A stretch of 64,000 bases of DNA from Paenibacillus sp. FSL H8-0548. Lineage in GTDB: Bacteria > Bacillota > Bacilli > Paenibacillales > Paenibacillaceae. The translations under genes and the position numbers were made by a program. The notes beneath the pieces were generated by a model that made no database searches, was not told the DNA's origin, and saw nothing but the letters and a program-made list of their open reading frames with translations. Within the stretch, counting starts at the first letter, position 1; every line of letters starts with the position of its first letter. Below are positions 36,153 through 55,041 of this stretch, piece by piece. The stretch lies in NCBI RefSeq assembly GCF_038630985.1, contig NZ_CP152049.1, positions 3,739,501 through 3,803,500 of the forward strand. The letters are read 5' to 3'.

Positions 36153-38306
36153 CTATTGCTGTTCAATGCTTGAATACGTTAAGCGCAGCGGTCTAATGTT
36201 AACGGTTGAGGTTTTAAAACCAGGCATTTTACAATTCGGATCAAGATCTGGACTTGTTGCTTTATTAACATTTTGGACTCCACCCCAATGCATGGGCACG
36301 AATAACGTATCTTCTCTTATTTTTTCGGTATATCGACTTCGTACGCTAAAGCTGCCTCTGCGTGAAGTTACCTCCACCCACTCACCATCTTCTATATTAT
36401 ATCTTTTGGCTGTACGTGGATGGATTTCAATGTAGTTTTCAATATTTCTGGCGGCTAAGGTAGGGCTTCTATGCGTTTGAACTCCAGTCAAATAATGTGC
36501 GAGTACTCTTCCGTTCGTCATCGTAAGCGGAAAATCACCGTTAGGCGTTTCATTCGGCTTTTGGCTGGATACAGGCACGAATAGCGCTCTGCCATCCGAA
36601 TGGGCAAATGATTTCTCGAACATCATGCCTTGATTGCCTTCTTCCTGAGTGCTAGGGCAGGGCCAGTAAACTCCACCTTCCCTCCGTAATCGGTCATACG
36701 TTATGCCATAATAATCGGCAACACCACCGCGGCTAGCTACTCTAAGCTCATCAAAAATTCGCTCTACATTCGTGTATGAAAAATACCGCTGCTTCCCTAG
36801 TCCCTCCGCAATGTCGCATAAAATCGACCAATCATGCCTTGTCTCCCCAGGAGCAGCTGCTGTCGATTCACGCAGAAGCACCCGTCCTTCAAGATTGGTT
36901 AATGTCCCGTCGTTTTCTAGATAAGCGGTTATAGGCAGTACAACATCTGCCATGCGAGCCGTTTCAGACAGGAACATGTCTGCTACCACTAGAAAATCTA
37001 AACCTGCTAATCCTTCCTCTACAAAATCAGCGTTCGGATTCGAGACGACAGGATTCGAGCCCATAACGAACAAGGAGCGAATCGTCTTCTGATGAATAAG
37101 CTCCATCATTTCATAGGCAGATACCCCCTTGCGAGGGAGCTCTGACGGATCAATTCCCCACACGCTGGAAACGTAAGCGCGATCCTGCTCATCCTCAATA
37201 CTCCGATAGCCGGGCAATTGGTCGCTTTTTTGTCCATGCTCCCGTCCCCCTTGCCCATTGCCTTGTCCGGTAATTGCTCCATAGCCGCAGCCGGGCTTGC
37301 CGATCTTCCCCGTTGCAAGGACAAGATTTAGAAAGTTTCGTACCGCCATATGCCCATCCGTCTGCTGCTCAACACCGCGCGCGGTGAAAATGATGCCCGT
37401 TTCCGCTTGCCCATAGGCAAGAGCTGCCTTTCGAAGAGCAGCCTCCTTCAAGCCAGTAAGCTCAGCCACCTCATGCAGATTTATCGATGCCATATGCTCC
37501 TTAAGCTCGTCGAATCCATTCGTTCTATTATGGATAAAGGACTCATCCAGCAGCTTCTCATCCAACAGTACCTTCAATAGGCCATTAGCAAGCGCGGCAT
37601 CTGTACCTGGCTTTAACTGCAAGTGAATATCAGCGATAGCCGCCGTAGCCGTTACCCTTGGATCAATTACAATAATGACGGCTCCATTTTCCTTTGCTTT
37701 ATTGAAATAAGGCATTAGCGTCGGCTGGCATTCAGCGATATTCGTACCGGCTAATATAATGCACCGAGCAAGTGGAATATCGGATAGTCTACAGGTTAAA
37801 CCGCGATCAACACCAAAGGCTTTATTGCCTGCGGATGCGGCAGCTGACATGCAGAATCGGCCATTGTAGTCCACATGCTTCGTTCGAAGGGCTACTCTAG
37901 CAAACTTGCCAAGCAGATAGGCTGTTTCATTAGTAAGCGAGCCTCCGCCATAAACACCGAGTGAATCAGAACCATAGGTTTTGCTAATCGATTCAAGCTT
38001 ATTCACAATCGTAAATATCGCCGTTTCCCAAGAGACAGGGACATGCTGTCCATTTTGCATGATTAGAGGCTGGAGAATACGATTGGAGCTGACCGCATGC
38101 TGATGGGCGTTCATTCCCTTCACACATAAGCGTCCTTCTGAGGCTGCATTAGGAAGACCTTCAATTGCATACTTGAAGCGGCGCGAGCCTGGAATCGGCA
38201 GCTCTTTCGTAATGCGCATTTTGCATTGCACACTGCAAAACGGACATTGTGTATCTATAACTTCAATCGCACCTTGTCGATCAGCTGTATTCGTCAATTG
38301 CCGCAT
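36153..38306 (-). CDS. nasC: Assimilatory nitrate reductase catalytic subunit
   Basis: A 717-residue molybdopterin-guanine-dinucleotide enzyme reducing nitrate to nitrite in the cytosol. The N-terminal [4Fe-4S] site is Cys21-x2-Cys24-x3-Cys28 (CPFCSVQC) plus Cys in GRLCVKGMN. The NasA/NarB-type segments HVDYNGRFCMSAAASAGNKAFGVDRG (the Mo-ligand Cys would be in GRFCMSAA), GSNPVVSNPN, DVVLPITAYLENDGTLTNLEGRVLL, and the C-terminal MPT domain ending VPMHWGGVQNVNKAT are clear. No TAT signal is seen, consistent with the assimilatory type. It overlaps nasB by 13 bp, so translation is coupled. No nitrite reductase gene is in the window. Confidence 0.95.
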   Translation of the reverse strand: MRQLTNTADRQGAIEVIDTQCPFCSVQCKMRITKELPIPGSRRFKYAIEGLPNAASEGRLCVKGMNAHQHAVSSNRILQPLIMQNGQHVPVSWETAIFTIVNKLESISKTYGSDSLGVYGGGSLTNETAYLLGKFARVALRTKHVDYNGRFCMSAAASAGNKAFGVDRGLTCRLSDIPLARCIILAGTNIAECQPTLMPYFNKAKENGAVIIVIDPRVTATAAIADIHLQLKPGTDAALANGLLKVLLDEKLLDESFIHNRTNGFDELKEHMASINLHEVAELTGLKEAALRKAALAYGQAETGIIFTARGVEQQTDGHMAVRNFLNLVLATGKIGKPGCGYGAITGQGNGQGGREHGQKSDQLPGYRSIEDEQDRAYVSSVWGIDPSELPRKGVSAYEMMELIHQKTIRSLFVMGSNPVVSNPNADFVEEGLAGLDFLVVADMFLSETARMADVVLPITAYLENDGTLTNLEGRVLLRESTAAAPGETRHDWSILCDIAEGLGKQRYFSYTNVERIFDELRVASRGGVADYYGITYDRLRREGGVYWPCPSTQEEGNQGMMFEKSFAHSDGRALFVPVSSQKPNETPNGDFPLTMTNGRVLAHYLTGVQTHRSPTLAARNIENYIEIHPRTAKRYNIEDGEWVEVTSRRGSFSVRSRYTEKIREDTLFVPMHWGGVQNVNKATSPDLDPNCKMPGFKTSTVNIRPLRLTYSSIEQQ

Positions 38307-40441
38307 AGGCTCTCACCTAGCCTTTCATCACTTTTATTCGTGATAGTCGCTGCCGCTTGCTCGACAAGCTCTATACGATAATCTAAGTCAAGTACCGATT
38401 CTCTTATGTTTGCAAGCCCTTCTCTCTCGATCCATTTCCAAAGCGGCTCACCAAATTCTGCATTTTCACGGTAAAGCTGAAGACAGGAAATAAACAGCTC
38501 GACAGCTAATCGATCAGAGTCGGCAATACCAATAAGCTGACCTTGCTTCACGGGATGCTCTGCATGGCCGCCAGCGTATACCTCCCAGCCCGCTGGAGAT
38601 CCGCAGATACCTACATCATGGACGAGCACGCCAGCAGATATATGAATGCTAGATGCGACTGCTGCGCGGACAGGTGCCGGAAATGGCAGGTCCGTACAAT
38701 AGTATTTCAACTGAGAGCCGACATAGCTTGAATGAAAATGGGCGTCTGTATCTTTTTCTGACCCGGAATGTACATCGACTGAGAAATGATTCCTTCCCCT
38801 CTTTGTTCCGCCAGCTATTGCCGCATTAACTTCCTTTGAATTTGGATAATAAAGAGCTGAATAATAGCGTATTGCTGATAAACAAAGGGAACACTCGCCG
38901 AGTCTGATTGAACCGAGCTCTTCTCTGATTTTATTTATAGAGTGGTCATGAGTGGTTTTCATATAAGCTTTAAGCATGTCGTGACTGATCTCAGCACAGC
39001 TGCAGATCGGTGAAATGATGAGAGCTCCCGCCTCTCGATCATGTGAGAGCGCATAGCGCACGATTGCTTCAACCATCGGGCGACAGCCTCCGCAAGAGCT
39101 TGATGCCTTCGTACGATCACGGACCTGCTCAACCGATTGCAGCCCATCTTCCATTACCGCGCACATAATTGCTGATTTATTTACGGCATTGCATGCGCAG
39201 ACCGTCTCGCGATCAGACATGCTTGCAACTATATGATCGCTATCGCTTTGGTCATCAGCCTTTGCGGTCGTTAGCTCGGCAACCGGCGCGCCTCTTTTGA
39301 CTAAGCCCAGCAATGCCGTTCCTTCCGACGTCTGACCAAATAGAATGGCGCCGCTCACCTTTCCATCCTTCATCGTTACTTTTTTGTAGGTGCCATGGAT
39401 GCCGTCATATATTTGAATCGCTGTATCTGCCTCACCCGATTGAATTTGGCCTACCGAGAACACCTCTACCCCGGAAACTTTAAGCTGTGCATAGGGGATA
39501 GAACCTGTATAGGGCTCTGTATGGTTTCCACATAGGGTACCTGCCAGCACCTTCCCTTGCTCATATAGCGGTGCAACGAGTCCATAGGCAACCCCGCGGT
39601 GCTCTGCGCACTCACCAACCGCATAAATGGATGGGACACTCGTTCTCATGTAGTCATCAACGATAATCGCTCTATTCGTTTCTATGCCGCTTTGTTTGGC
39701 AAGTGCAATGTTCGGCCGAATTCCGACAGAGATAACGATTAAATCTGCCTCTATCGTGCTGCCATTCGTAAACCGAATCCCTTTGGCGCGATTTAGCCCA
39801 ATGATACTCTCTGTTTCCTTGCTTAATGAGAATCGCATGCCCTGCTGCTCTAATTCCTTGCGCAGCATGTCTGCGGCTATGACATCAAGCTGTCGATTCA
39901 TTAAATAGGGCGCATTATGGATAACCTCTGTTTGCATGCCAAGATTTAATAGACCGCGTGCAGCTTCAAGTCCTAGCAAGCCGCCGCCGATGACTGCTGC
40001 TCGCTTGTATTTTTTCGCATACGCAAACATCGTCGCACAATCTTCCATGCTGCGAAACGAAATAACTCCCGATTTATGGACACCTGTTATAGGAGGGATA
40101 AAGGCAGAAGAGCCCGTTGCAATAATAAGGTGATCATATTCTGCACAAATGCCAGACAAGGTGGTTACCTGCTTCGTATTCGTATCAATCTGAACGACAG
40201 TCTCACCTGTAAATAAGCGAATATTTCGCTCCTCATACCAGGACCAGTCATTAATTACGATACTGTCAATTGAAGAATCCCCTTGCAGCACCTTTGACAA
40301 TAATATGCGGTTATAATTGGGATGCTTCTCACTGCCAAACACCGTTATTTGAAACTTTGACGGCGACAGCTTTATAATTTCATCCAGGCATTTAATGCCT
40401 GCCATGCCATTTCCGATTACAATTAACTTTTCTCTACTCAT
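38294..40441 (-). CDS. nasB: Nitrate reductase electron-transfer subunit (NasB-like, NirB-related)
   Basis: A 715-residue flavoprotein that probably passes NAD(P)H electrons to NasC. An FAD-binding VIGNGMAGIKCLDEI starts it; LIIATGSSAFIPPI and an NAD-binding AAVIGGGLLGLEAARGLLNLG follow. A BFD-type [2Fe-2S] site (CACN near residue 420 and CGGC about 33 later) comes next. A C-terminal region similar to the sulphite/nitrite-reductase half-domain has a VGICGSPAGWEVYAGG tail. The siroheme-cluster motif expected just before it (SGCPRNC type) is absent; the stretch reads ASSIHISAGVLVHD. So this is a diaphorase subunit, not a nitrite reductase. It follows moeA by 28 bp. Confidence 0.88.
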   Translation of the reverse strand: MSREKLIVIGNGMAGIKCLDEIIKLSPSKFQITVFGSEKHPNYNRILLSKVLQGDSSIDSIVINDWSWYEERNIRLFTGETVVQIDTNTKQVTTLSGICAEYDHLIIATGSSAFIPPITGVHKSGVISFRSMEDCATMFAYAKKYKRAAVIGGGLLGLEAARGLLNLGMQTEVIHNAPYLMNRQLDVIAADMLRKELEQQGMRFSLSKETESIIGLNRAKGIRFTNGSTIEADLIVISVGIRPNIALAKQSGIETNRAIIVDDYMRTSVPSIYAVGECAEHRGVAYGLVAPLYEQGKVLAGTLCGNHTEPYTGSIPYAQLKVSGVEVFSVGQIQSGEADTAIQIYDGIHGTYKKVTMKDGKVSGAILFGQTSEGTALLGLVKRGAPVAELTTAKADDQSDSDHIVASMSDRETVCACNAVNKSAIMCAVMEDGLQSVEQVRDRTKASSSCGGCRPMVEAIVRYALSHDREAGALIISPICSCAEISHDMLKAYMKTTHDHSINKIREELGSIRLGECSLCLSAIRYYSALYYPNSKEVNAAIAGGTKRGRNHFSVDVHSGSEKDTDAHFHSSYVGSQLKYYCTDLPFPAPVRAAVASSIHISAGVLVHDVGICGSPAGWEVYAGGHAEHPVKQGQLIGIADSDRLAVELFISCLQLYRENAEFGEPLWKWIEREGLANIRESVLDLDYRIELVEQAAATITNKSDERLGESLCGN

Positions 40442-40469: not shown

Positions 40470-41735
40470 CTAAATCGAAAGCGTAATCCAGCGAACCTCC
40501 TCTCCAGCAGCAGCTCCAGCGCCTCCTGCTTTAATAAGCATAAGAGCATTAGCTCTTGCAAAGGCAGCGATATTCCCGGATTTATCATTGCGCAGCGGCT
40601 CGACCAGCCACTCTTTTTCATGACGATAAACGAAGGCTCTTGCATATCGCGGGTAAGGCGATGGTTTTGGAATCGAATCGATTAAACGTCCCTCCATCCA
40701 CTCAGAACGATAATCATTTCTTCCAGAAGCCTTCAAAACAATGGGACGCAGCAGCAGCTCAACACCTGTAAAGCAAGCCGATGGATTGCCAGACAGGCAA
40801 ATCATGAGCTTCGATCCCAATAGATAGGCTGATGTCGGTGTTCCTGGCCTCATAAGCACCTTCGTGAACAAAGGTGACCCGCCAATGCTCTCGGCCGCTC
40901 GCTTCACGAAATCATAGTCCCCTACGGAGACGCCGCCTATGGTCACCACTAAATCTGCTGTATCAAGAGCAGCTTTCATAGCCGCCTCAATCGTGAACTG
41001 ACAATCGGCAATTGGAGCTTGACGGATTACGTTTGCTCCAAGCTCACGCAGCCGCGCACTTACCATGAAGCTGTTTGCATCGAAAATACTGCCAGCCTGA
41101 AGAGATTCTCCTGGCAAAGCCAATTCATCTCCTACAGGTATAATGGCAACCACAGGTTTTCTATAGACTGTTATGCTATCTTGGCCAAAAGAGGCTAACA
41201 CCGCGATTTCCTTGGCCTTGATCGCCGTACCTCGGTAAAGCATCTTCATACCTTGCGGAACATCTTCGCCTTTCTCCGCGATATGCTGCCCTTTTGGACA
41301 AGCACGATCAATTTGTATAGCAGGATAACTGCGCAGTCCTCTACGCTCTTGCACTGTCTCTTGCATAACAATCGCATCATAGCCTGTGGGGACAGGCGCA
41401 CCAGTAAATATACGGACAGAATCCAATAACTCCGGTTCTGACGAATTGGATGGATTCCATTGTCCGGCTCGAATTTCATCACTAACTTTCAACAGCACGG
41501 GTTGCTCCTTGGAAGCATGAATAGAAGAAGCGGAAAAAATCGCATAACCATCCATAGCTGCACGGCGAAAAGGCGGTAAGGAGAACGGACTTTCAAAGTC
41601 TAAAGCAAGTACACGGGATAATGAATCCTCTAAAGGAGTTTCTTCCATAAGAGGCTCCCTTACTTCTCTTGCCATCTTCATAACGGCTTTGGATACAGAA
41701 GCTGTCAGCGGCTCTGCCGCGGTTACGATCGACAT
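40470..41735 (-). CDS. moeA: Molybdopterin molybdotransferase MoeA
   Basis: A 421-residue enzyme inserting molybdate into adenylylated molybdopterin. Features: N-terminal LEDSLSRVLALDFESPFSLPPFRRAAMDGYA (PF.RsaMDGYA signature near residue 60), FTGAPVPTGYDAIVMQE near 115, the Moco-binding VTIGGVSVGDYDFVK near 245, and LMICLSGNPSACFTGVELLLRP. It is the first gene of a moeA-nasB-nasC operon, supplying cofactor for the reductase it is transcribed with. AGGGGAGGG precedes the ATG. Expression is probably gated by the leader at 41777-41840. Confidence 0.95.
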   Translation of the reverse strand: MSIVTAAEPLTASVSKAVMKMAREVREPLMEETPLEDSLSRVLALDFESPFSLPPFRRAAMDGYAIFSASSIHASKEQPVLLKVSDEIRAGQWNPSNSSEPELLDSVRIFTGAPVPTGYDAIVMQETVQERRGLRSYPAIQIDRACPKGQHIAEKGEDVPQGMKMLYRGTAIKAKEIAVLASFGQDSITVYRKPVVAIIPVGDELALPGESLQAGSIFDANSFMVSARLRELGANVIRQAPIADCQFTIEAAMKAALDTADLVVTIGGVSVGDYDFVKRAAESIGGSPLFTKVLMRPGTPTSAYLLGSKLMICLSGNPSACFTGVELLLRPIVLKASGRNDYRSEWMEGRLIDSIPKPSPYPRYARAFVYRHEKEWLVEPLRNDKSGNIAAFARANALMLIKAGGAGAAAGEEVRWITLSI

Positions 41736-41776
41736 ATTATCCCTCCCCTGTCACTAGTTGATTTCAAAATAAACAG

Positions 41777-41840
41777 AAAAATCCCTTTCCCGTAAATGGG
41801 AAAAGGCATCGTTGCCGCATGAGTTGGCACGCCACTGTGC
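41777..41840 (-). promoter_or_regulatory. ANTAR-type two-hairpin antitermination leader of moeA-nasB-nasC
   Basis: Read on the minus strand. P1 at 41840-41827 is GCAC, loop AGTGGC, GTGC. P2 at 41816-41805 is GGC, loop AACGAT, GCC. The terminator at 41807-41777 is GCCTTTTCCC, ATTTAC, GGGAAAGGG, then ATTTTT. Both loops are hexamers with A at position 1 and G at position 4, the known ANTAR recognition pattern. The 3' arm of P2 (GCC) is also the start of the terminator stem, so P2 and terminator exclude each other. An ANTAR protein (NasR/NasT type) encoded elsewhere should stabilise P1-P2 and permit read-through. Confidence 0.7.
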
Positions 41841-41860: not shown

Positions 41861-41900
41861 AGATTAATCCACGATCAAGCTAATGTCAACAAAAATGACA
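41861..41900 (-). promoter_or_regulatory. GlnR/TnrA-type box and promoter, moeA side
   Basis: TGTCAACAAAAATGACA at 41884-41900 fits TGTNA-N7-TNACA exactly. On the minus strand its distal half gives a TTGACA -35 (41889-41884), 17 bp before TAATCT (41866-41861), a weak -10. An alternative is TTGATC with TATAGA (41855-41850). Either would start the transcript just upstream of P1. Confidence 0.6.
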
Positions 41901-41933: not shown

Positions 41934-41973
41934 TGTTATATATATTGACATATACATTACGTATACATATAAT
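41934..41973 (+). promoter_or_regulatory. GlnR/TnrA-type box and SigA promoter, nasA side
   Basis: TGTTATATATATTGACA at 41934-41950 fits TGTNA-N7-TNACA. Its last six bases are a perfect TTGACA -35 (41945-41950), with 17 bp and a perfect TATAAT at 41968-41973. The box start is exactly 50 bp from the moeA-side box. The box covers the -35, so direct binding should repress, unless activation works from the other box. Confidence 0.7.
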
Positions 41974-42014
41974 TCGAGTTGAGGTTACAACTTAGTAATC
42001 CAAATACGTGAGGG

Positions 42015-42087
42015 TGCACAATGATGTGCAGCCGATGGCAATGAGGCCGCTTTTCGTTCCTGTATAAGGACGGATTGCGGCTTTTTT
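42015..42087 (+). promoter_or_regulatory. ANTAR-type two-hairpin antitermination leader of nasA
   Basis: P1 at 42015-42030 is TGCAC, loop AATGAT, GTGCA (extendable by GG/CC past a mismatch). P2 at 42036-42049 is TGGC, loop AATGAG, GCCG. Both hexaloops have A1 and G4. The terminator runs 42046-42087: GCCGC...GCGGC with an inner CGT.CCT/AGGACG helix and then TTTTTT. Its 5' arm is the 3' arm of P2, so the two structures are exclusive. This is the textbook layout for nitrate-responsive ANTAR antitermination. Confidence 0.75.
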
Positions 42088-42115: not shown

Positions 42116-43357
42116 ATGGAGAGAAAAGGATTTTGGCAAAGCGGTCACAAGCCAACATTATTTAGCGCGTTTTTGTATTTTGACATGAGCTTTATGATTT
42201 GGGTGTTAATTGGCCCGCTCAGCGTAATTATTGCAGCAGATTATCCGATGGACCCTGTTCAAAAAGCAAATTTGGTAGCACTTCCTATTTTAGGAGGCTC
42301 TATTTTAAGATTAGTATTAGGTTTTATGACAGATTATATTGGACCTAAACGAACGGCACAATTCGGAATGCTCTTTACCATTATCCCGCTAGTCATGGGC
42401 TGGAAATTCGTACATTCTTTGGATCATCTTTATATTGTTGCGCTTTTGCTCGGTGTTGCCGGCGCATCGTTTGCAGCAGCCCTGCCGCTTGCCAGCCAGT
42501 GGTATTCCAAAGAGCATCAAGGCCTTGCCATGGGTATTGCTGGAGCCGGAAATAGCGGAACGGTCATTTCCACCTTGTTTGCTAACCGTCTGGCCCAGCA
42601 TTATGGCAGCTGGGAAGTCGTTTTTGGACTTGCGATTATTCCAATCGTTATCGTTTTTATTATCTTCACAATTTTCGCGAAAAACAGTCCGAATCGCCCT
42701 GCCCCGAAGAAGCTATCGCAATATGCGCAAGTTTTAAAGCAAGGTGATGCTTGGATATTCTGTGCTTTTTATTGTGTGACCTTCGGCGGCTTCGTCGGAC
42801 TCGCCAACTATCTAACCATATTCTTCAATACACAATATGGACTTTCACCAGTTAGGGCAGCAGACTTTACCACCTTTTGCGTCATCGCAGGCAGCTTCTT
42901 TAGGCCGATTGGCGGCTACTTGTCTGATCGAATTGGCGGTGCGCGAATGCTGACGCTGCTTTATGCTGGCGCTGGAATCATGCTTGCAGCTGTTGCTTCT
43001 ATGCCTGCATTGCCCGTTGTCATTACCATGTTGTTCATCGGCATGATGTGTCTAGGAGCTGGAAACGGCTCGGTATTTCAGCTTGTCCCGCAGCGCTTTG
43101 GCAGCGAGCTTGGACTCATGACTGGCATAATCGGGGCAGCCGGCGGTTTAGGCGGGTATGCACTGCCGCTAATACTCGGGAAGCTCTACCAAACAACTGG
43201 TTCGTACACGTCTGGCTTTCTGATTTTAAGCTTAGTAACACTTGGATCTCTTACTCTGCTGGTCGTTATGCAGTCCAAATGGAAGCACAAATGGATGGCC
43301 AAAGGAGGAAAAGCAAAGTTGGATACCCTCTCCGAGGCATCCCAAGCTAACCTCTAG
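42116..43357 (+). CDS. nasA: Nitrate/nitrite MFS transporter (NasA/NarK family)
   Basis: A 413-residue, 12-helix major facilitator protein importing nitrate. It has the N-terminal FDMSFMIWVLIGPLSVIIAADYPMDPVQKANLVALPILGGSILRLVLGFMTDYIGPKRT (with the substrate-pocket Arg in ILRL), a nitrate signature GAGNSGTVISTLFANRLAQHYG near residue 145, and GNGSVFQLVPQRFGSELGLMTGIIGAAGGLGGYALP near 320. It is divergent from moeA-nasB-nasC, and both are preceded by related leaders and nitrogen-control boxes, so transport and reduction are co-regulated. AAGGGAGAG precedes the ATG. Confidence 0.95.
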   Translation: MERKGFWQSGHKPTLFSAFLYFDMSFMIWVLIGPLSVIIAADYPMDPVQKANLVALPILGGSILRLVLGFMTDYIGPKRTAQFGMLFTIIPLVMGWKFVHSLDHLYIVALLLGVAGASFAAALPLASQWYSKEHQGLAMGIAGAGNSGTVISTLFANRLAQHYGSWEVVFGLAIIPIVIVFIIFTIFAKNSPNRPAPKKLSQYAQVLKQGDAWIFCAFYCVTFGGFVGLANYLTIFFNTQYGLSPVRAADFTTFCVIAGSFFRPIGGYLSDRIGGARMLTLLYAGAGIMLAAVASMPALPVVITMLFIGMMCLGAGNGSVFQLVPQRFGSELGLMTGIIGAAGGLGGYALPLILGKLYQTTGSYTSGFLILSLVTLGSLTLLVVMQSKWKHKWMAKGGKAKLDTLSEASQANL

Positions 43358-54884: not shown

Positions 54885-54945
54885 AAAAAAATCCTAACTA
54901 AGAATATAAGATCATTAAAAAATGATCGCATATTCGTAGTTAGGA
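54885..54945 (-). terminator. Switchable terminator in the EamA leader
   Basis: Minus strand TCCTAACTACGAATAT plus GATCATT pairs with AATGATC plus ATATTCTTAGTTAGGA, then TTTTTTT. The 5' arm contains the 3' strands of P3 and P1 of the aptamer, so ligand-stabilised P1 should prevent it. Confidence 0.75.
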
Positions 54946-55006
54946 AGTTAAGGCTTCCCGTAGAAACCCTCACCCTTTTAAGCCATTTCCGTGAGGTTAT
55001 ACGAAT
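54932..55006 (-). promoter_or_regulatory. Purine-riboswitch-like aptamer
   Basis: Minus strand, 5' to 3'. P1 is ATTCGTA (55006-55000) with TACGAAT (54938-54932). P2 is CCTCAC/GTGAGG. J2/3 is GTTTCTACG, matching the purine-core UUUCUAC. P3 is GGAAG/CTTCC with loop CCTTAA. J3/1 is TAAC, ending in C at the specificity position, which is guanine-type. L2 contains AATGG, able to kiss the CC of L3, but is about 10 nt longer than in canonical purine riboswitches, so a variant ligand is possible. Confidence 0.65.
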
Positions 55007-55041
55007 TATTTAGTTAATGAAAATTGTATTCATTCATTCGA

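Follow-up and report, generated by a model that had tools for sequence, protein, structure and literature searches.

The nasA-moeA intergenic region

The window analysed here, a stretch of 64,000 nucleotides from Paenibacillus sp. FSL H8-0548, contains nasA on the plus strand and, divergent from it, a moeA-nasB-nasC operon with an element of its own in its leader. The features of this region, in window coordinates and with the basis of each assignment, are:

36153..38306, minus strand: nasC, assimilatory nitrate reductase catalytic subunit (over the NF047855 cut-off)
38294..40441, minus strand: nasB, NirB-like NADH-dependent oxidoreductase (over the TIGR02374 cut-off)
40470..41735, minus strand: moeA-like molybdopterin molybdotransferase (over the TIGR00177 domain cut-off, under the equivalog cut-offs)
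41775..41806, minus strand: intrinsic terminator of the second element, CCTTTTCCC..GGGAAAGGG then ATTTTTCT (stem 41806-41783, then T run; scan, sequence)
41805..41816, minus strand: P2 of the second element, GGC[AACGAT]GCC, moeA-nasB-nasC leader (scan)
41827..41840, minus strand: P1 of the second element, GCAC[AGTGGC]GTGC, moeA-nasB-nasC leader (scan, covariance model)
41884..41900, no strand assigned: second GlnR/TnrA box, TGTCAACAAAAATGACA, overlapping a -35-like TTGACA (41889-41884) of the minus-strand operon (consensus match)
41934..41950, no strand assigned: GlnR/TnrA box, TGTTATATATATTGACA (TGTNA-N7-TNACA), overlapping the nasA -35 (consensus match)
41945..41973, plus strand: nasA sigma-70 promoter, TTGACA-17-TATAAT (12 of 12 consensus positions)
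41983..42000, plus strand: stem GGTTAC[AACTTA]GTAATC at the place of the third hairpin (P0) of relatives, with T at loop position 4 (stem comparison)
42015..42030, plus strand: nasA leader hairpin P1, TGCAC[AATGAT]GTGCA, hexaloop with A1 and G4, closing C:G (sequence, scan, alignment A1)
42036..42049, plus strand: nasA leader hairpin P2, TGGC[AATGAG]GCCG, hexaloop with A1 and G4, closing C:G (sequence, scan, alignment A1)
42043..42087, plus strand: nasA leader intrinsic terminator (sequence, folding, scan, unplaced-terminator search)
42116..43357, plus strand: nasA, NarK-family nitrate/nitrite MFS transporter (298.4 bits to TIGR00886, just under the cut-off of 311.7)

The original prediction described the nasA leader as two hairpins with hexaloops AATGAT and AATGAG preceding an intrinsic terminator, the 3' arm of the second hairpin being also part of the 5' arm of the terminator. 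Both statements are borne out by the sequence at 42015-42087. P1 and P2 are separated by the linker GCCGA, and the GCCG of the P2 3' arm is contained in the terminator 5' arm (GCCGC, 42046-42050), which pairs with GCGGC (42077-42081) ahead of a run of six T (42082-42087). By sequence, P2 and the terminator are mutually exclusive. The consensus promoter, placed 35 bp upstream, matches at all 12 positions and its -10 ends 41 nt before P1, making the distance roughly right.

RNA folding, suggested as a check, agrees with this arrangement. The 96-nt leader folds at −37.4 kcal/mol and none of 200 shuffles is as stable (z −5.0), the terminator contributing most of this. In the minimum-energy fold the terminator and P1 are formed and P2 is disrupted, the look expected of a switch that is off by default. 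In this fold the P1 loop closes one extra A-U pair, leaving a tetraloop; this pair is not general, because many relatives have C at the sixth loop position. An Rfam scan of the leader, riboswitches and T-boxes included, gave no family above threshold, and three matches below threshold (E up to 10) look like chance. Elsewhere in the window, a purine riboswitch (RF00167) is found at 54917-55024 on the minus strand (51.9 bits).

Specificity of the hexaloop arrangement

The window was scanned mechanically on both strands for pairs of A1/G4 hexaloop hairpins whose loops start 17-30 nt from each other, with a terminator beginning at the second hairpin. In its 64 kb the pattern occurs twice, at 42020(+) and 41836(−), and each site lies in the nasA/moeA intergenic region. 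The second is a complete element (41840-41775, minus strand) that the original prediction did not contain; the opening bases of its terminator fall in the P2 3' arm.

As a control, the loop letters of the scan were varied over 1.11 Mb (the window plus loci L003-L057, both strands). The A1/G4 pair gave 58 places and each of the 15 other pairs 1-11 (64 in total), so that A1/G4 stands about 13-fold above the mean of the others, supporting the proposed dual-hexaloop ANTAR recognition code. All but one of the 58 places are in nas/nir leaders (57, with the L025 leader counted twice); the remaining one is in L051. The presence of A1/G4 in alignment A1, and a 2-5 nt overlap of P2 and terminator in 56/56 leaders, are partly by construction, since the scan demanded A1, G4 and a terminator starting near P2.

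An attenuator serving another factor, such as a leader peptide or a different RNA-binding protein, with the ANTAR resemblance being convergent, has to be weighed here: terminators are common in leaders, and ANTAR binding to nas leaders is inferred from sequence. Against it speak the excess of A1/G4 loop letters, a closing C:G pair in 51/51 sequences, the Rfam result for the leader, and ANTAR genes that co-occur with the element and are linked to it. We consider such an attenuator highly improbable and prefer an ANTAR target.

A third element heads nirB, outside the window (L003:8314-8352); its P1 stem deviates from the consensus (ATAC/GTAT). A covariance model, R1, was built from 51 sequences that include the three strong elements of this genome. 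R1 was applied to 150 of the 3087 first-look candidates in the 7.35 Mb genome; the nasA, moeA-nasBC and nirB elements received 47.9, 41.4 and 32.4 bits, and the next of the 27 matches 19.4 bits. These scores are not independent, because most of what R1 found had gone into building it. A search of the 7.35 Mb for the exact pattern CACANNGNNGTG-N6-16-GGCANNGNNGCC returned just the two sites in the window, and nothing when the pattern was read backwards. The 24 weaker genomic matches (13-19 bits) were rejected; a terminator-like pattern lies under them only at an agmatinase leader (L069) and at eight copies of one repeat (L070-L077). A stray R1 match was also seen at L027:8973-9005 (19.0 bits).

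Conservation in relatives

A NasA query fetched 53 loci: 35 intact loci of the Paenibacillus/Cohnella type (among them two records labelled Bacillus sp. and one Gordonibacillus), 16 loci of other organisms, L052, which is without the nasA 5' end, and L057, in which nasA is truncated; the last two were left out of the count. The original prediction was to be judged by conservation of the hexaloops and of the P2/terminator overlap in orthologous nasA leaders. The plus-strand element, hexaloops included, is present at 35/35 of the intact loci (24.9-47.3 bits), while the 16 loci of other organisms (Niallia, Domibacillus, Acidiphilium, Sulfurovum and others) gave no element at E up to 0.1. On the minus strand, an element was found in 27/27 loci with a divergent nas operon, the first gene of which is moeA, nasB or nirB depending on the species. 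The mechanical scan also accepts 53 of the 62 ortholog elements; nine were found by R1 alone (L021, L024 and L027 on the plus strand, L016, L018, L019, L020, L026 and L038 on the minus strand).

When the best terminator was sought without fixing its place, it overlapped the P2 3' arm in 56 of 65 nas and nirB leaders, the window included. Seven of the remaining nine have another best terminator, and the plus-strand leaders of L024 and L027 have none by the rule used. Over 56 leaders, the median energies are −3.2 kcal/mol for P2 and −22.8 kcal/mol for the terminator.

Changes on both sides of a pair occur in 28 cells of paired columns against 10.0 in shuffles, a comparison that ignores relatedness. 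P1 accounts for 27 of these, with such changes in three of its five pairs; its outermost pair is the source of 17 of the 28, yet is unpaired in 22/51 sequences. The GGC/GCC core of P2 is invariant and therefore yields no covariation evidence. The pair closing the loop is C:G in all 51 sequences for both hairpins, and a closing C:G pair was also selected in SELEX with NasR (PMC7496416).

In L057 (3895-4100), nasA stops after 31 codons and the two loop-closing pairs of its leader are both broken (17.6 bits), with the divergent moeA-side element intact (42.5 bits). This is a single case, and an assembly error is possible.

Leader variants

A third hairpin, CAC[ANNGNN]GTG, is present in 20 of 36 nasA leaders (L017-L034, L037 and L043; the window is counted, and is without it). 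Its loop lies 30-38 nt before the P1 loop, near the predicted transcript start. The same hairpin was found in none of 22 minus-strand leaders and is also absent from the nirB leader. When the letters at loop positions 1 and 4 of CAC[XNNYNN]GTG were counted, A/G occurred 20 times, A/A twice and other pairs never; this is a narrower test, because the closing CAC/GTG of P1 is assumed. A count by stem length alone (A/G 15, A/T 11, T/A 10, G/T 9) was dropped as unclean. The close relatives L006 and L008 keep a stem at the P0 place with a loop without G4, as in the window, and the window stem at 41983-42000 is a probable relic of a third A1/G4 hairpin.

Two loci, L035 and L036 (3727-3868), have two element-plus-terminator units in tandem ahead of nasA; their best unplaced terminator is that of the second unit. 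At the other extreme, two agmatinase-like genes that diverge from the second ANTAR gene of the genome have a leader (L004:6840-6905, G000:C1 about 750855) with a lone TGGC[AAAGAG]GCCG over a terminator and without a clear first hexaloop, and the same is seen in both other genomes with a close ortholog of that ANTAR gene (L155, L156). The EutV-RNA structure raised the question of how many hexaloops are needed per ANTAR dimer (PMC8934654). Natural variants with three (20/36 nasA leaders), two (the window) and one (agmatinase leaders of three genomes) bear on it.

Promoters and GlnR boxes

The window holds two GlnR/TnrA boxes in all, by the consensus TGTNA-N7-TNACA drawn from PMC3412718, and both are in the nasA/moeA intergenic region. 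The moeA-side promoter has a good -35 and no clear -10. Among relatives, a box is found within 180 nt 5' of the P1 loop in 51/56 leaders, commonly ending in the -35 TTGACA. Two gates are thus likely: nitrogen limitation acting at the promoter through a putative GlnR, and nitrate or nitrite acting at the terminator. A comparable two-gate control operates in Klebsiella, where Ntr is combined with NasR.

The promoter region that nasA and nasD1 share in P. polymyxa is bound by GlnR, which represses these genes (PMC9948412); the main text of that article has no occurrence of 'ANTAR' or 'terminat'. Together with the boxes in 51/56 leaders, this repression could be taken to mean that GlnR at the promoter does all the regulating and that the terminator is constitutive, fixing a low basal level. 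A fixed terminator, however, would have no use for hexaloops kept in register with its 5' arm, as seen in 56/65 leaders, nor for a linked ANTAR gene, and we give the constitutive reading very little credence.

ANTAR genes and their distribution

The genome contains two ANTAR genes, both over the Pfam cut-off. Neither this result nor the comparison of orthologous nasA leaders refutes the original prediction. As anticipated, a profile search located both outside the window. The first, ANTAR1 (G000:C1:5869562; L003:7530-8147, minus strand), diverges from nirB, the third element lying in the gap between the two genes. The second, ANTAR2, is at 750106, beside agmatinase. Orthologs of ANTAR1 lie beside nirB and an element in L134, L135, L138 and L140-L145, and the gene order nirB-ANTAR-TrpD2-like was found in 10/10 further neighbourhoods from selected genomes. 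In L022, L025, L028, L030, L033, L035 and L036, an ANTAR ortholog is inside the nas cluster. The claim that the regulator acts in trans is therefore apt for this genome, and does not extend to those relatives. ANTAR1, which adjoins nirB, would be the likeliest regulator of the nas elements, acting in trans.

It could be argued that the element is read by ANTAR2, or by both proteins, and not by the nirB-linked ANTAR1. In favour, the domains of the two proteins each exceed the Pfam threshold, and a P2 hexaloop of this kind also lies over a terminator in the agmatinase leader next to ANTAR2. Close ANTAR2 orthologs (>200 bits), however, are present in only 3/197 genomes (G000, G123, G162), as opposed to 139/197 with the element, and ANTAR1 orthologs adjoin nirB or sit within the nas cluster. 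A role for ANTAR2 at the nas elements is thus unlikely, and ANTAR1 is retained as the candidate.

Among the 197 genomes of the family, the element (E up to 0.01) is found in 139 and an ANTAR match in 159; 137 have both and 36 neither. ANTAR is present in 137/139 element-bearing genomes versus 22/58 element-free ones (Fisher p 8e-22, phylogeny ignored). Two genomes have the element without an ANTAR match, G014 with a weak element and G070 with a strong one, and 22 have ANTAR without the element. Genus g6 contributes 11 of the 139; their element matches are weak (E 3e-4 to 0.0095), and the ANTAR protein of this genus is of another type, 191 aa long. Four g6 loci (L116, L117, L119 and L127; L118, from genus g9, is not among these) contain none of the nas, nirB and TrpD2-like genes, so they may represent another ANTAR system. 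Excluding g6, the co-occurrence is 126/128. The element was matched in 136/246 genomes of an order-level sample (E up to 0.001) and in 18/250 of a class-wide sample, two of these outside the family; the family, order and class samples overlap one another. One class member outside the family, L186, has nasA, the element, ANTAR and the TrpD2-like gene.

Proposed mechanism

From architecture, conservation, co-occurrence and linkage, all of them visible in the sequence, we infer binding by an ANTAR protein, antitermination and the nature of the signal. The nasA leader is very probably a conditional terminator of the ANTAR-target type, with twins on moeA-nasB-nasC and nirB, a nitrate/nitrite signal, ANTAR1 as the likeliest regulator and a second gate of the GlnR type. 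When no active regulator is present, the strong terminator (about −23 kcal/mol) would form and transcription would halt some 100 nt from its start. In the presence of nitrate or nitrite, the presumed signal, the ANTAR protein would bind the A1/G4 hexaloops and stabilise the weak P2. Stabilised P2 would take the strand that the terminator needs, and RNA polymerase would continue into nasA. Through the twin elements on moeA-nasB-nasC and nirB, transport, nitrate reduction and nitrite reduction would share one switch, and the GlnR-type box over the -35 would be a second gate, at the promoter.

The mechanism itself is already known; this case adds a member to it, an ANTAR antiterminator in nitrate assimilation for which a likely regulon and a likely regulator can be named. 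What looks new is the receiver-like domain without conserved phosphorylation residues, the TrpD2-like neighbour in place of NasS, and the third A1/G4 hairpin in 20/36 nasA leaders. Among the titles and abstract openings listed by a literature search, none reports such an element for nas leaders of Paenibacillus; the ANTAR targets predicted in PMC3369931 include nitrate transporters of Gram-positive and Gram-negative bacteria, and Paenibacillus sites may already be among them. Nitrate induction in soil- and plant-associated Firmicutes (Paenibacillus, Cohnella) becomes testable in these terms, with GlnR governing the start of transcription and ANTAR its continuation.

Signal input to ANTAR1

An hmmscan of both ANTAR proteins gave no NIT match, and ANTAR1 has no Pfam receiver match. 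A genome-wide NIT search gave no matches, as did its controls. In the predicted structure of the L035 ANTAR1 ortholog (mean pLDDT 81.8, pTM 0.64, 7 sequences), a receiver-like alpha/beta domain is followed by a long helix and the ANTAR helices. The best Foldseek matches of this model are EutV and AmiR (1qo0 included), with modest TM-scores of 0.4-0.6. In alignment A2, the residue ending the third strand is H, S, D or another, and there is no Lys before the conserved 'SM' (register by eye). The receiver-like domain is therefore probably without the conserved phosphorylation and switch residues, making phosphorylation improbable. Compared with the NasR/NasT-like gene suggested in the original prediction, ANTAR1 has a predicted receiver-like N-terminus joined to ANTAR; the protein is not of the NasR type, having no NIT match, and no NasS-like sensor was found by Pfam.

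The gene directly 3' of ANTAR1 (L003:6467-7603) codes for a TrpD2-like protein (PF00591/PF02885). Among proteins of solved structure, those closest to it in sequence are anthranilate phosphoribosyltransferases and YbiB, and the GTGGD-type PRPP motif of TrpD is replaced (by eye). A strong ortholog (182 bits or more) is present in 96 genomes, in 93 of them within 111 bp of a listed ANTAR match; with G104 added, the gene is next to ANTAR in at least 94/96, and G083 and G162 are without a neighbour among the matches listed. This gene linkage is what suggests the TrpD2-like protein as a candidate partner of ANTAR1, and the conserved pair hints at an unexplored type of signal input. A partner of this kind would not account for sensing in L022, L025, L028 and L030, where ANTAR is placed between nas operons and has no TrpD2-like gene near it. 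A Pfam search for NasS returned six NMT1_2 (PF13379) proteins; as all of them begin, by eye, with a sequence of the signal or lipoprotein type, it gave no NasS candidate, and none of the ANTAR1 neighbours that were Pfam-scanned is a kinase. As a tentative and rather doubtful proposal, Paenibacillaceae may have a variant in which an unphosphorylatable ANTAR protein is held or tuned by the TrpD2-like protein, not by NasS, a kinase or NIT, and in which the ancestral nasA leader had three A1/G4 hairpins, the first at the extreme 5' end.

AmiR-AmiC controls genes different from nas/nir. It is alike in the receiver-like fold plus ANTAR domain, as seen in structure 1qo0, and differs in the candidate partner, which here is TrpD2-like. 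EutV-type targets in Enterococcus eut leaders (PMC3369931, PMC8934654) share the two A1/G4 hexaloops, the P2/terminator overlap and an ANTAR protein in the genome; here, in contrast, the genes are those of nitrate assimilation, the receiver-like domain is apparently without conserved phosphorylation residues, and a TrpD2-like gene abuts. NasR and the nasF leader of Klebsiella (PMC7496416) also represent ANTAR antitermination of nitrate assimilation, with A1/G4 loops and a closing C:G; NasR, however, has a nitrate-sensing NIT domain, whereas the ANTAR proteins here have no NIT match and the element is on three separate operons. NasS-NasT of Paracoccus and others (PMC3795266) shares a receiver-like N-terminus on the ANTAR protein, and its model of a regulator held inactive by a partner would fit; the difference is that no NasS-like gene is found here by Pfam, the conserved neighbour being TrpD2-like.

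A further gene in the vicinity of ANTAR1, L003:5188-6402, was considered as a conserved partner and rejected, as it is present in 0/10 fetched neighbourhoods. Its product has an HTH fused to an SBP-like domain (weak, below cut-off), and the gene lies two genes off, beside an ABC transporter operon.
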